DNA from: Caryophanales bacterium
Lineage (GTDB): Bacteria; Bacillota; Bacilli; CAJFEE01
Direction of reading: 5' to 3'
NCBI GenBank assembly: GCA_029256085.1
Contig: JAQSYP010000004.1
Span: 62,001 to 126,000, forward strand
DNA length: 64,000 bases
Shown: positions 21,672 to 26,609 of the stretch, piece after piece
Position numbering within the stretch: position 1 is the first letter of the stretch
Layout of the letters: each line of letters opens with the position of its first letter
Position numbers and translations under genes: made by a program
The notes under the pieces: model-generated
The model's database searches: none
What the model was told of the DNA's origin: nothing
The model's input: the letters and a program-made list of their open reading frames with translations, nothing else

Positions 21672-22427
21672 ATGGATGTTGAAGTCAAAAATGAACAAAC
21701 AAAGGCCCCTTTAAAGGATCGTGAAATAAAGGAACTAATTGTAAGAAGTCAAAATGGTGATCATAAAGCTAGAGAAATAATAGTTGAGAAGAATATGAGA
21801 CTGGTTTGGTCAGTTGTCCAAAGGTTTCTAAATAGAGGTTATGAACCTGATGACCTTTTTCAAATAGGAAGCATAGGATTACTAAAGTCTGTTGATAAAT
21901 TTGACCTTAGCTATGACGTTAAATTTTCAACTTATGCCGTTCCGATGATAATTGGAGAAATCCAAAGGTTTATTAGAGATGATGGAACAGTCAAAGTAAG
22001 CAGGTCATTAAAAGAGATTGGTAATAAAATAAGAAAGCTAAAAGATGAAATGTCTAAAACTCTAGGTAGATCACCTACTGTTAATGAGATTGCTGAGGCT
22101 TTAGAGATTACTCGTGATGAAGTTATTTTAGCCCAAGATGCAAATAGGACACCTACATCAATCCATGAAACTGTATACGAGAATGATGGTGATCCAATTA
22201 CTCTACTTGATCAGATAGCAGATAACTCAGAGCACAAGTGGTTCAATAATTTAGCGCTTTCTGATGCAATACATGGGTTATCTGAACGTGAAAGACTAAT
22301 CGTATTTTTAAGGTACTATAAGGATCAAACTCAATCAGAAGTTGCAGAAAGACTTGGTATATCGCAAGTGCAGGTTTCAAGATTAGAGAAAAAAATATTA
22401 CAACAAATTAAAGAGTACATGGATTAA
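21672..22427 (+). CDS. sigF: RNA polymerase sigma-F factor
   Basis: 251-residue forespore-specific sigma factor, third gene of the operon. Region 2 has DLFQIGSIGLLKSVDKFD and FSTYAVPMIIGEIQRF; region 3 GRSPTVNEIAEAL; region 4 a helix-turn-helix (SEVAERLGISQVQVSRLE). AAGGAG precedes the ATG, 13 bp after spoIIAB. A strong terminator overlaps the stop codon. Confidence 0.97.
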   Translation: MDVEVKNEQTKAPLKDREIKELIVRSQNGDHKAREIIVEKNMRLVWSVVQRFLNRGYEPDDLFQIGSIGLLKSVDKFDLSYDVKFSTYAVPMIIGEIQRFIRDDGTVKVSRSLKEIGNKIRKLKDEMSKTLGRSPTVNEIAEALEITRDEVILAQDANRTPTSIHETVYENDGDPITLLDQIADNSEHKWFNNLALSDAIHGLSERERLIVFLRYYKDQTQSEVAERLGISQVQVSRLEKKILQQIKEYMD

Positions 22428-22451
22428 ATTATTTTAATCCATGTACTTTTC
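22414..22451 (+). terminator. spoIIA operon terminator
   Basis: A 15-bp stem (22414-22428 with 22433-22447) that includes the sigF stop codon, ending in TTTT. Confidence 0.8.
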
Positions 22452-22480
22452 TCATTAAAAGTAAAGTATATGCATTCTCA

Positions 22481-22594
22481 AAAAAAACTGCTCGCTTTCC
22501 GCGGGCACGGCCTCAGGCGTTTTTCGCAAGTTTTACTTGCAAAAATGGATTTTTGGCTCGTGCTGTTCCCGCTGGAGTCGAGCAGTTTTTTTTA
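22481..22594. repeat. family B palindromic element, copy 2 (full length)
   Basis: AAAAAAACTGCTCG at the left pairs with CGAGCAGTTTTTTT at the right. Inner parts CTTTCCGCGGGCACGGCC and GGCTCGTGCTGTTCCCGC also pair in part, and the centre has TTTTCGCAAG/CTTGCAAAAA. It fills the place where spoVAA and spoVAB stand in B. subtilis. Confidence 0.8.
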
Positions 22595-22655
22595 TTGTGT
22601 TAAGTCTACTTATTAAAATGACTTAGCAATGTCAAGCTTATTTTATTTTAAAATA

Positions 22656-22685
22656 TGATTTTTTCTGTATTAATTACTCATACTA
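22656..22685 (+). promoter_or_regulatory. candidate sigma-G promoter of the spoVA operon
   Basis: TGATTT (22656-22661), 17 bp spacer, CATACTA (22679-22685). The -10 is a perfect match to the sigma-G/F pattern, the -35 agrees in half of its bases. spoVA operons are sigma-G dependent. Confidence 0.6.
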
Positions 22686-22722
22686 AAATTAAAGTAAAAT
22701 TTCTAGGGTAAGGTGGATTGAA

Positions 22723-23175
22723 ATGACAAATTCAATAAAACACAACTACAAAGATAAAGTTAAAGATTTTCATCCAAATCCTCATATATTTAAAAACTGT
22801 ATTAAAGCATTCGTTGTGGGAGGATTAATATGTGCGTTTGGGCAAGTGCTAACTAACTTTTATCTAGCAAATTTTAATTTCACTGAAGAAACAGTTGGAA
22901 ATCCGACAGTAGCAACATTAATCCTAATATCAGCTATATTAACAGGCTTAGGATACTATGACATTATTGGTCAATTTGCTGGAGCTGGTTCAGCGGTACC
23001 TGTTACTGGATTTGCAAACTCGATGGCTTCAGCTGCACTAGAATATAAAAGTGAGGGCATCGTACTTGGAATTGCAACAAATATGTTTAAGCTTGCTGGA
23101 AGTGTTATTGTATTTGGAGTTGTATCAGCGTATGTTGTTGGAATTATAAGATATATATTCAATATGTTTATGTGA
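22723..23175 (+). CDS. spoVAC: SpoVAC, spore dipicolinate channel subunit
   Basis: 150 residues with several hydrophobic helices and the motifs QFAGAGSAVPVTGFANSMASAA and KLAGSVIVFG. Part of the inner-membrane complex importing Ca-dipicolinate into the forespore and releasing it in germination; B. subtilis SpoVAC has mechanosensitive channel activity. It is first gene of the operon here, behind a sigma-G-like promoter. spoVAA and spoVAB, which precede it in B. subtilis, are not present. Confidence 0.95.
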   Translation: MTNSIKHNYKDKVKDFHPNPHIFKNCIKAFVVGGLICAFGQVLTNFYLANFNFTEETVGNPTVATLILISAILTGLGYYDIIGQFAGAGSAVPVTGFANSMASAALEYKSEGIVLGIATNMFKLAGSVIVFGVVSAYVVGIIRYIFNMFM

Positions 23176-23185
23176 AGGTGAAACT

Positions 23186-24217
23186 ATGAATAACTTACTC
23201 GGAAAACAGACTTGGTCTTTTAATAAGGGAGTTTATATTCTATCAAGGGCTACAGCATCAGGACCAAAAGAAGGTAGTGGTCCAATAGGTAGTTTATTTG
23301 ATAAAGTTTATGATGAGTTACATTGTGGACAAAATAGCTGGGAATTAGCAGAAAGAGCACTATTGAGCGATAGTATAAATTTATGTCTTGAAAAGGTAAA
23401 TAAAAACTATAACGATATTGACTTATTACTTGCTGGAGATTTAATTAATCAAATAGTTAGCGCAAACTATGCTGCAAGACAAATTAATATCCCTTTCTTA
23501 GGTATCTTTGGTGCATGTTCAACATCCATGGAAGGCCTTGCGATTGCTAGTGCATTAGTAGAGAGTAGTTATGCTAACTATGCAATAGCAGCAACATGTA
23601 GTCATAACTCAACAGCTGAGAGACAATTTAGGTATCCAACAGAATATGGAGGTCAGAAACCAGAAACAGCAACGACAACTGTAACTGGTGGAGGGGCTGT
23701 TTTAGTTAGTAAAGAACAAACAAAAATTAAAGTAACTCATGCAACTATAGGCAAAGTCCAAGATTTAGGTATAACTGATCCATTTGATATGGGTTCAGCA
23801 ATGGCGCCTGCCGCAGCAGATACAATTAGGCAACATTTTATTGATACTAATCGAAAACCTGAAGATTATGATCTCATTGTAACGGGTGACCTATCTGCTG
23901 TAGGTAAGCCAATTTGTGAGAAACTCCTATTAGAAGATGGGTTTGATGTATCAAATGTTTACAATGATTGTGGATTAATAATTTATAAACAAGGTGATAG
24001 TGAAGTTTTTGCAGGTGGAAGTGGATGTGCATGCAGTGCATTAGTAACGTATTCACACTTGTTAAATGAACTTGAGTCAGGAAACTATAAAAGAATTTTA
24101 GTTGTAGCAACAGGAGCCCTATTAAATCCTACGATGATACAACAAAAAGAGTCAATTCCGTGCATTGCACACGCAGTAGCATTTGAATACGAATCAGAGC
24201 GAAAGAGGATGAAATAG
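23186..24217 (+). CDS. spoVAD: SpoVAD, dipicolinate-binding thiolase-fold protein
   Basis: 343 residues with ketosynthase/thiolase fold signals ([20 protein letters not shown]). SpoVAD sits on the outer face of the spore inner membrane complex and binds dipicolinate directly. GAAGGTG precedes the ATG, 10 bp after spoVAC. Other typical parts: [11 protein letters not shown] near the start, and [17 protein letters not shown]. Confidence 0.96.
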
Positions 24218-24218
24218 T

Positions 24219-24569
24219 ATGGAATATCTCATTGCATTCGTAACAGGTGGTTTAATTTGTATTGTGGGTCAATTATTACTTGATATTCTTAAGTTTACAC
24301 CAGCACATGTAATGGCGACATTTGTAATTATCGGATCAATTTTAGATGGCTTTGGAATTTATGATAAATTTATAGAATTTGCAGGCGCAGGTGCAACTGT
24401 CCCAATTACAAGCTTTGGGCATTCATTACTACATGGAGCTATGGCCGAAGCGGAGAAGCATGGATTTATTGGTATCGGAATGGGTATGTTTAAACTAACA
24501 TCAGGCGGTATATCAGCAGCTATAGTCTTTGCTTTTTTTGTAGCTTTAATTTTTAAACCGAAAGGATAA
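24219..24569 (+). CDS. spoVAEB: SpoVAEB, membrane subunit of the SpoVA channel
   Basis: 116 residues, mostly membrane helices, with [20 protein letters not shown], which parallels the SpoVAC motif; the two are homologous. The start is one base after the spoVAD stop, so translation is coupled. Role: membrane part of the dipicolinate transport complex. Confidence 0.94.
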
Positions 24570-24574
24570 TTCAT

Positions 24575-25144
24575 ATGAAAACAAAGGTTATTCTAATAAC
24601 CGATGGAGATGAATATGCGCTACAAACTATTCAGCTAATAGCAAAGGAGTTTGGAGGACGTTGTATTTCCCAGAGTAAGGGAAATCCAACCAAATTTACT
24701 GGCTATGAAATAGTTAAATTAATTAAAAAAGCTAAATCAGAACCGGTATTTGTACTATTTGACGATAGCGGATGTCTTGGTGAGGGACCGGGTGAAAGAG
24801 CACTCGAATATGTGATTAAACACGAAGATATTCAAATTCTAGGAGTCCTGGCGGTTGCATCAAGAACACATAATCAAGAGTGGACAAAAGTTGATTATAC
24901 AGTTGATAGATATTGCAAAGTGTCAAAACTAGGTGTAGATAAAGAGGGAATTCAAGAGTTAGAATACGGAAGAATAAGTGGCGATACGGTATATATTTTA
25001 GACTCATTAGATGTACCAATAATTGTTGGTATTGGTGATATTGGTAAAATGGGCGGTTATGACGATGTCAAAAAAGGATCACCTGTAACGAAAAAGGCAA
25101 TTAAATTAATCCTTGAACGGAGTGGTGATTTTGAAAAAAAATGA
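24575..25144 (+). CDS. spoVAEA: SpoVAEA, soluble SpoVA protein
   Basis: 189-residue cytosolic protein with [12 protein letters not shown] at the start, [20 protein letters not shown] and [14 protein letters not shown]. It matches the SpoVAEA family by length and motifs. It follows spoVAEB by 5 bp and overlaps spoVAF by 14 bp. Its exact role is unclear in studied species; it is found in the spore and influences germination. Confidence 0.93.
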
Positions 25145-26609
25145 AGAAGAAGTTTATGATATATTTTCTGAAGTCCTAAAAAACGATGAATATTTTAAAA
25201 AGAATGTAGGTAGCAAAGTAAGTTTTGATATTGGGATCAGACCATTTAAAATATTAGGTCGAGATGTTCATGTTCATTTTTTAAATGGATTAACAGATAG
25301 CAGTATACTAATTCATATTTTCTCTGATTTACTACAAATAAATGACCATGAAGAGAATAAGTATGAGTTGTTCAATATTATCTTTAATAGATTAAACCAC
25401 CAGTCCGTCACGACTATAAATTCATTAGAAGAAGCTACAGTCCAACTACTTTGTGGCTTGCCAGTTATATTTATTGATGGTGAAACATCAGCAATTGCGA
25501 TTGATATAAGAAGTTACCCCGGAAGATCACCTCAAGAACCTGACACGGAAAAGGTAGTAAGAGGTGCAAGAGATGGTTATACGGAAAATATTATTGTAAA
25601 TACTGCATTAACTCGTAGAAGAATTAGAGATCAGAAATTACGATTTAAGATTATGAAGATTGGTCAAAGATCAAAAACTGACGTTGTAGTTGCATTTATA
25701 GAAGATATTGCTGATCCAAGGTTAGTTGAAGATATAACAAACAAACTAGAATCAATTGATATTGATGGATTGGCAATGGCAGATAAAACTGTTGAAGAGT
25801 GCATTGTAAATCAAGGATATAATCCGTTTCCTTTAGTAAGGTATACTGAGAGACCAGATGTCGCTGCTAATCATCTTATTGAAGGTCATGTAATTGTATT
25901 TGTAGATACATCACCTAGTGTGATAATTACTCCTACAACATACTTTCACCATGTTCAACATGCTGAAGAATATCGTCAGGCACCAATAATTGGTACAGCT
26001 TTAAGGTGGTTTAGATTTCTTGGATTATTTCTATCAATATTTTTACTACCGTTATGGTTACTATTTGCAACGGATTTAGCATTGCTACCTGAAAACCTTG
26101 AGTATATTGGACCAAAAGAACTTACTAATATACCAGTGTTAATCCAAATATTGCTAGCTGATTTTGGAATTGAGTTTTTACGGATGGCAGCAATACATAC
26201 ACCGACACCTTTATCAACAGCTATGGGTCTGATTGCAGCAGCTCTTATAGGGCAAATTGCAATTGATGTAGGTTTATTTGTTCCAGAGGTAATTTTATAT
26301 GTAGCAATTGCGGCAATTGGCTCATTTGCGACACCTTCTTATGAAATGGGTGTTGCAAATAAAGTAGCTAAAACAGGTTTATTAATTTTATCAGCGTTCA
26401 TGGGTATAGAAGGATTTATGCTTGGAGTAACAATTATATTTGTCTCTTTAGTAAGTTTAAAGTCTTTTAACACACCATACTTATGGCCATTTGCTCCTTT
26501 TAATCCAGCAGCATTTAAGGAAATTGTAATTAGAACACCAGTAAAAACCTCTAGACGTCTTAGTGTTATAAACCCTCAGGACCGAGTAAGAATGAAGAAA
26601 TCTAAGTAA
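25131..26609 (+). CDS. spoVAF: SpoVAF, GerA-family membrane protein
   Basis: 492 residues. N-terminal cytosolic domain (about 1-290), then about five membrane helices in the C-terminal half and a basic tail. [23 protein letters not shown]-type loop and [19 protein letters not shown] are family features shared with GerAA. In B. subtilis SpoVAF assists germinant receptors, forming a likely ion channel. The TTG at 25131 has GGAGTGGTG upstream and is preferred over a TTG at 25113. Last gene of the operon. Confidence 0.94.

Follow-up and report, generated by a model that had tools for sequence, protein, structure and literature searches.

The window, a 64,000-nucleotide stretch of a Caryophanales genome, carries on its forward strand a spoVA operon of five genes directly 3′ of spoIIAB and sigF. 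The sigF gene (spoIIAC; 21672–22427) matches TIGR02885 (spore_sigF) with an E value of 3.5e-110 and is followed by spoVAC (22723–23175; TIGR02838, E = 4.5e-63), spoVAD (23186–24217; TIGR02845, E = 3.1e-157; PF07451, E = 2e-154) and spoVAEb (24219–24569; TIGR02839, E = 2.7e-52), all three equivalog models of this jointly encoded core scoring over their cut-offs. The best match of SpoVAD to a named organism is 68% identical, in a search that may omit records of the window’s own genome. The canonical sigF-linked arrangement continues after spoVAEb with spoVAEa (24575–25144; PF14097, E = 2.4e-78) and spoVAF (25131–26609, with an assumed TTG start; PF03323, E = 2.8e-155). The latter encodes a GerA-family protein whose only NCBIfam match, to GerXA, lies below cut-off, and its name comes from its position in the operon and from tblastn matches at the same position in relatives. 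The operon thus resembles the seven-gene spoVA1 of B. subtilis in lying after dacF, the spoIIA genes and sigF, in the order C-D-Eb-Ea-F and in having a sigma-G-like −10 element before its first gene. Unlike spoVA1, it does not have spoVAA and spoVAB as its first two genes, and the pair is missing from locus and genome alike.

In the spacer between sigF and spoVAC, which measures 295 bases (22428–22722), a single copy of a palindromic repeat lies between a hairpin and a sigma-G-like −10 element. The hairpin (22411–22450, forward strand) overlaps the sigF stop and, judged by folding energy and shuffles, is a likely intrinsic terminator, with an 18-bp stem, a loop of 4, a 3′ arm ending in TTTT and a folding energy of −22.5 kcal/mol (z = −8.66). 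No open frame and no tblastn trace of spoVAA or spoVAB was detected in the spacer, in agreement with the initial annotation, and no Rfam match reached gathering score within 22300–22800.

The palindrome (22484–22592, no strand assigned; about 105 bases, −50.3 kcal/mol, z = −6.45) is an interspersed repeat with at least 42 matches in its own genome, two of them just 26 bases long; this count is a lower bound, from 40 scored candidates out of 99. No match was found in the sister genome G001, and five other genomes yielded a single match of 24 bases, in Bacillus sinesaloumensis (the genome of locus L008). The repeat copy is not thought to belong to the function of the operon. Because it has so many genomic matches and none in G001, which itself lacks spoVAA and spoVAB, no link is shown between it and the loss of these genes, either as a remnant or as a cause.

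The same annotation had filled the spacer with a palindrome and a sigma-G-like promoter; the former is as described, and the promoter (22657–22685, forward strand) is unusual only in its −10 half. Scored against the sigma-G consensus, the −10 element CATACTA (22679–22685) matches at 7 of 7 positions, whereas the weak −35 element GATTT is poor at 3 of 5. CATACTA lies 44 bases before the spoVAC ATG, and an exact −10 at 30–50 bases before the ATG occurred in 0.45% of 2000 dinucleotide shuffles; the −35 and −10 scores were jointly reached in 357 of 1000 shuffles, which is not unusual. In 16 hand-chosen loci that carry spoVAA, the best site before this gene had an exact −10 in 12, and 11 of these sites lay at a measured 35–46 bases from spoVAA, a range whose counting runs some 6 bases beyond the assumed start and thus slightly overstates the true distances. 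Among 14 loci without spoVAA other than the window, an exact −10 preceded spoVAC in only three, one of them, in G001, with a full match. This pattern would suit a loss of spoVAA and spoVAB from between a retained promoter and spoVAC in the family of the window.

Profile searches of the genome (2.63 Mb in 17 contigs, rated 100% complete) with SpoVAA (PF12164) and SpoVAB (PF13782) gave no match, whereas the B. subtilis control was matched by both. A separate operon of the pair was thus not found, nor was a second spoVA cluster, both matches of the SpoVAC/SpoVAEb family in this genome falling in the present operon; on these two checks, proposed in the initial annotation, its reading holds. The absence of spoVAA and spoVAB from this genome is confirmed as real at profile sensitivity. 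That the genes are present and were missed, through an assembly gap or through divergence beyond both profiles, is very unlikely: the assembly is indeed in 17 pieces, and four SpoVAA-bearing genomes match the SpoVAA profile only at 1e-8 to 1e-10, but the sigF–spoVAC junction lies inside one contig, the better conserved SpoVAB gives matches of 1e-29 or better in 123 of the 124 genomes with SpoVAA (all but G161), and the sister genome agrees. This genome, G001, is the other member of the order in our sample and belongs to the same family but another genus; profile searches found neither SpoVAA nor SpoVAB in it. Behind its spoVAC-D-Eb-Ea block stand the same neighbours as in the window, a ppiB-like gene and then scpA/scpB-like genes (names that come from reading the translations). 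There is no spoVAF at this operon (L088), and the 1.0 kb between its spoVAC and the contig end showed no sigF.

The initial annotation had presented the missing genes as something of an anomaly, and here a sample of the class tells otherwise. Among the 299 sampled genomes, for which profile matches were counted per genome, 124 matched SpoVAA, 125 SpoVAB and 229 SpoVAD, the last figure being made up of 21 weak (E above 1e-6) and 208 strong matches (5.4e-32 or better). As many as 84 of the 208 strong-SpoVAD genomes have no SpoVAA match, and 83 have neither SpoVAA nor SpoVAB. All 124 SpoVAA genomes fall within the strong-SpoVAD set and each also matches SpoVAB; the only SpoVAB without SpoVAA (G080) is a partial match of 37 positions, perhaps a contig-end fragment. 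SpoVAA and SpoVAB come and go as a unit. A search for SpoVAB in ten genomes found it in four (those of L003, L013, L015 and L016) and not in six (the window’s own genome G000, G001 and those of L014, L018, L019 and L020). The literature had already recorded such absences: Galperin et al. (2012, PMC3533761) list spoVAA and spoVAB for ‘most bacilli, some clostridia’ and name Alicyclobacillus acidocaldarius, Arthromitus and Lysinibacillus sphaericus as lacking them, the last being a genome that these authors distrust. The absence in the window is thus one more instance of a variant already known, in which spoVAA and spoVAB are accessory, as that literature already lists them.

Of 21 genomes without SpoVAA from outside the family of the window, chosen for a broad spread of families among the 84, 13 have sigF 0.1–0.5 kb upstream of spoVAC (G007, G013, G015, G020, G033, G034, G047, G094, G105, G128, G174, G240 and G244); in the other eight no sigF was found within the fetched stretch, which for G248 excluded the spoVAC locus. 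Locus L014 (Bacillaceae MAG GB_MAG13_007; its contig stretch is that of G020) has sigF 0.2 kb upstream of spoVAC, much as in the window, and A. acidocaldarius likewise has a spoVA operon without the pair (PMC3533761). These operons differ from that of the window in belonging to other lineages, with probably separate losses.

Several loci that do carry spoVAA show a different kind of variation. In 16 of 27 such loci (L061–L087) no spoVAC was detected beside spoVAA-AB; 13 of these 16 have sigF upstream, spoVAEa and/or spoVAF often follow (for example in L074, L078 and L086), and SpoVAD is found elsewhere in the genome (for example in G002 and G082). The core on the one hand and the AA, AB, Ea and F genes on the other look like separable modules, as if an unlinked core had replaced the linked one. 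In L079 and L087 (genomes G106 and G263, family f37) the sigF-linked SpoVAC and SpoVAEb are unusually divergent, with 29–40% identity to those of the window, despite good matches for AA, AB, Ea and F; each of these two genomes has two SpoVAD matches, and they form long branches in the C-D-Eb tree described below. In G161, where the SpoVAB match covers 35 positions only, SpoVAD is matched four times; three of these matches score identically, lie in different places and resemble copies of a mobile spoVA operon.

The descent of the locus was followed in a tree of two short proteins, SpoIIAB and SigF, with 57 rows (two of them from one genome), 39 of which have spoVAA and spoVAB. Here the window falls in a set of 16 rows (support 95/82) that includes Ectobacillus, Fictibacillus, Bacillus sinesaloumensis and further genomes, and 14 of the 16 carry the pair; the support concerns membership of the set and not the exact neighbour of the window. 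The presence or absence of the pair changes seven times on this tree, at least four changes being forced by well-supported branches, and eight times on a quick tree of 53 rows, for which a single clade of the 14 rows without spoVAA was rejected (p-AU 2e-136); these counts carry no direction, be it loss or gain. Moreover, genus g45 holds both states, the pair being present in G057 and G204 and absent in G240. Because the rows without spoVAA do not form one clade and a single genus shows both states, the pair has probably been lost several times in Bacilli. A sister relationship between the window and G128 was not rejected (p-AU 0.53), and their loss may therefore be one event.

The same trees bear on the alternative that the pair was never present in the lineage of the window and arose later in other Bacilli. 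The genomes of L018–L020 (Acholeplasmatales, Acholeplasmataceae and uncultured Bacilli), which lack SpoVAB and have neither gene at the locus, would accord with such a history, as would change counts that give no direction. However, the window nests among Bacillales that carry spoVAA, with the support given above, and the two states within genus g45 indicate that losses do seem to happen, so that ancestral absence appears improbable.

An origin from another operon is less probable still. The initial annotation had likened the operon to the second spoVA operons of the B. cereus group, and a spoVA2 of that type might have replaced the original operon beside sigF: spoVA2 likewise lacks spoVAA and spoVAB and, according to PMC13059800, has only C, D and Eb in common with spoVA1. 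By contrast with spoVA2, which in the same account carries NJ2 and other genes, the operon in the window has spoVAEa and spoVAF in canonical order and no NJ2-type lipoprotein gene, its genes being C, D, Eb, Ea and F. Nor does the likeness hold by descent. In a quick C-D-Eb tree of 55 rows, from which B. cereus spoVA2 was left out, the operons without an adjoining sigF form one clade of 12 rows (nine operons), which we infer to be spoVA2-like, and both the window and G001 lie outside it. The window belongs instead to a set of 21 rows (support 99) made up of 15 sigF-linked operons with spoVAA, five sigF-linked operons without it (the window included) and G001, its exact place within the set not being fixed.

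We therefore consider it very probable that the operon is an ordinary sigF-linked spoVA operon of Bacilli that lacks the promoter-proximal spoVAA and spoVAB and retains the C/D/Eb core together with Ea and F. The loss of the pair would probably date back at least to the common ancestor of the genus of the window and its sister genus, and the retained sigma-G promoter would now read spoVAC directly.

As for function, the spoVA products of B. subtilis are described as essential for stable spores (PMC4959285), and a review states that any spoVA deletion except those of Ea and F hampers the transport of DPA during sporulation (PMC11841064). The view in the initial annotation that spoVAA and spoVAB are needed in B. 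subtilis is thus in print, but with a qualification from the same review: deletion of either gene leads to premature germination that is suppressed by deletion of gerA, and DPA is normal. SpoVAC, SpoVAD and SpoVAEb are regarded as the essential core, with C and Eb forming a channel that D plugs, and the operon of C. difficile is sufficient for B. subtilis to import DPA (PMC13059800). The three-gene spoVA operons of C. difficile and C. perfringens (PMC4959285) share with the window the C, D and Eb core and the absence of spoVAA and spoVAB; unlike them, the operon in the window keeps Ea and F and adjoins sigF. Given the sufficiency of the C. difficile operon and the normal DPA of the deletion strains, an operon without the pair is expected to transport DPA.

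In the organism of the window, which its gene content suggests to be a spore former, the predicted function of the operon is accordingly the import of DPA into the forespore and its release in germination. For both, the inner-membrane channel would consist of SpoVAC and SpoVAEb, with SpoVAD as the plug on the core side, and SpoVAEa and SpoVAF, together with FigP, may help release. SpoVAA and SpoVAB, which in B. subtilis guard against premature GerA-dependent germination, would be dispensable here.

This dispensability would not reflect the dropping of germination receptors. The genome has five GerA-family matches, one of them SpoVAF, and the other four adjoin B and C genes, the B gene being divergent at one locus; four GerA-type receptor loci with A, B and C genes are kept, so that the organism has not escaped by receptor loss. 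GerA-family matches were also found in the four other genomes without SpoVAA that were searched. The FigP family (YqhR) is matched in the window’s own genome (E = 3.7e-30), and across the sample (E under 1e-5) in 85 of 124 SpoVAA-bearing genomes versus 8 of 84 without SpoVAA, a difference confounded by ancestry. G001 has two GerA-family genes in total, neither on the contig of the operon, and no FigP match; together with the missing spoVAF, this fits a joint loss of SpoVAF and FigP.

The general picture of spoVA operons is mostly unchanged by these observations, as the non-universality of spoVAA and spoVAB was already on record. What is added is that the pair behaves as a unit and has apparently been lost repeatedly, also within a genus, with GerA-family genes kept. 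One speculative reading, to which we give a rather low probability, is that spoVAA and spoVAB constitute a removable gating module, discarded many times while GerA receptors were retained, and that such organisms have another way of shutting the C/D/Eb channel against stray GerA ion release. The genomes compared here are a resource for studying the roles of SpoVAA and SpoVAB, and, if the gating-module reading were true, the close relatives with and without the pair in genus g45 would amount to a natural experiment.
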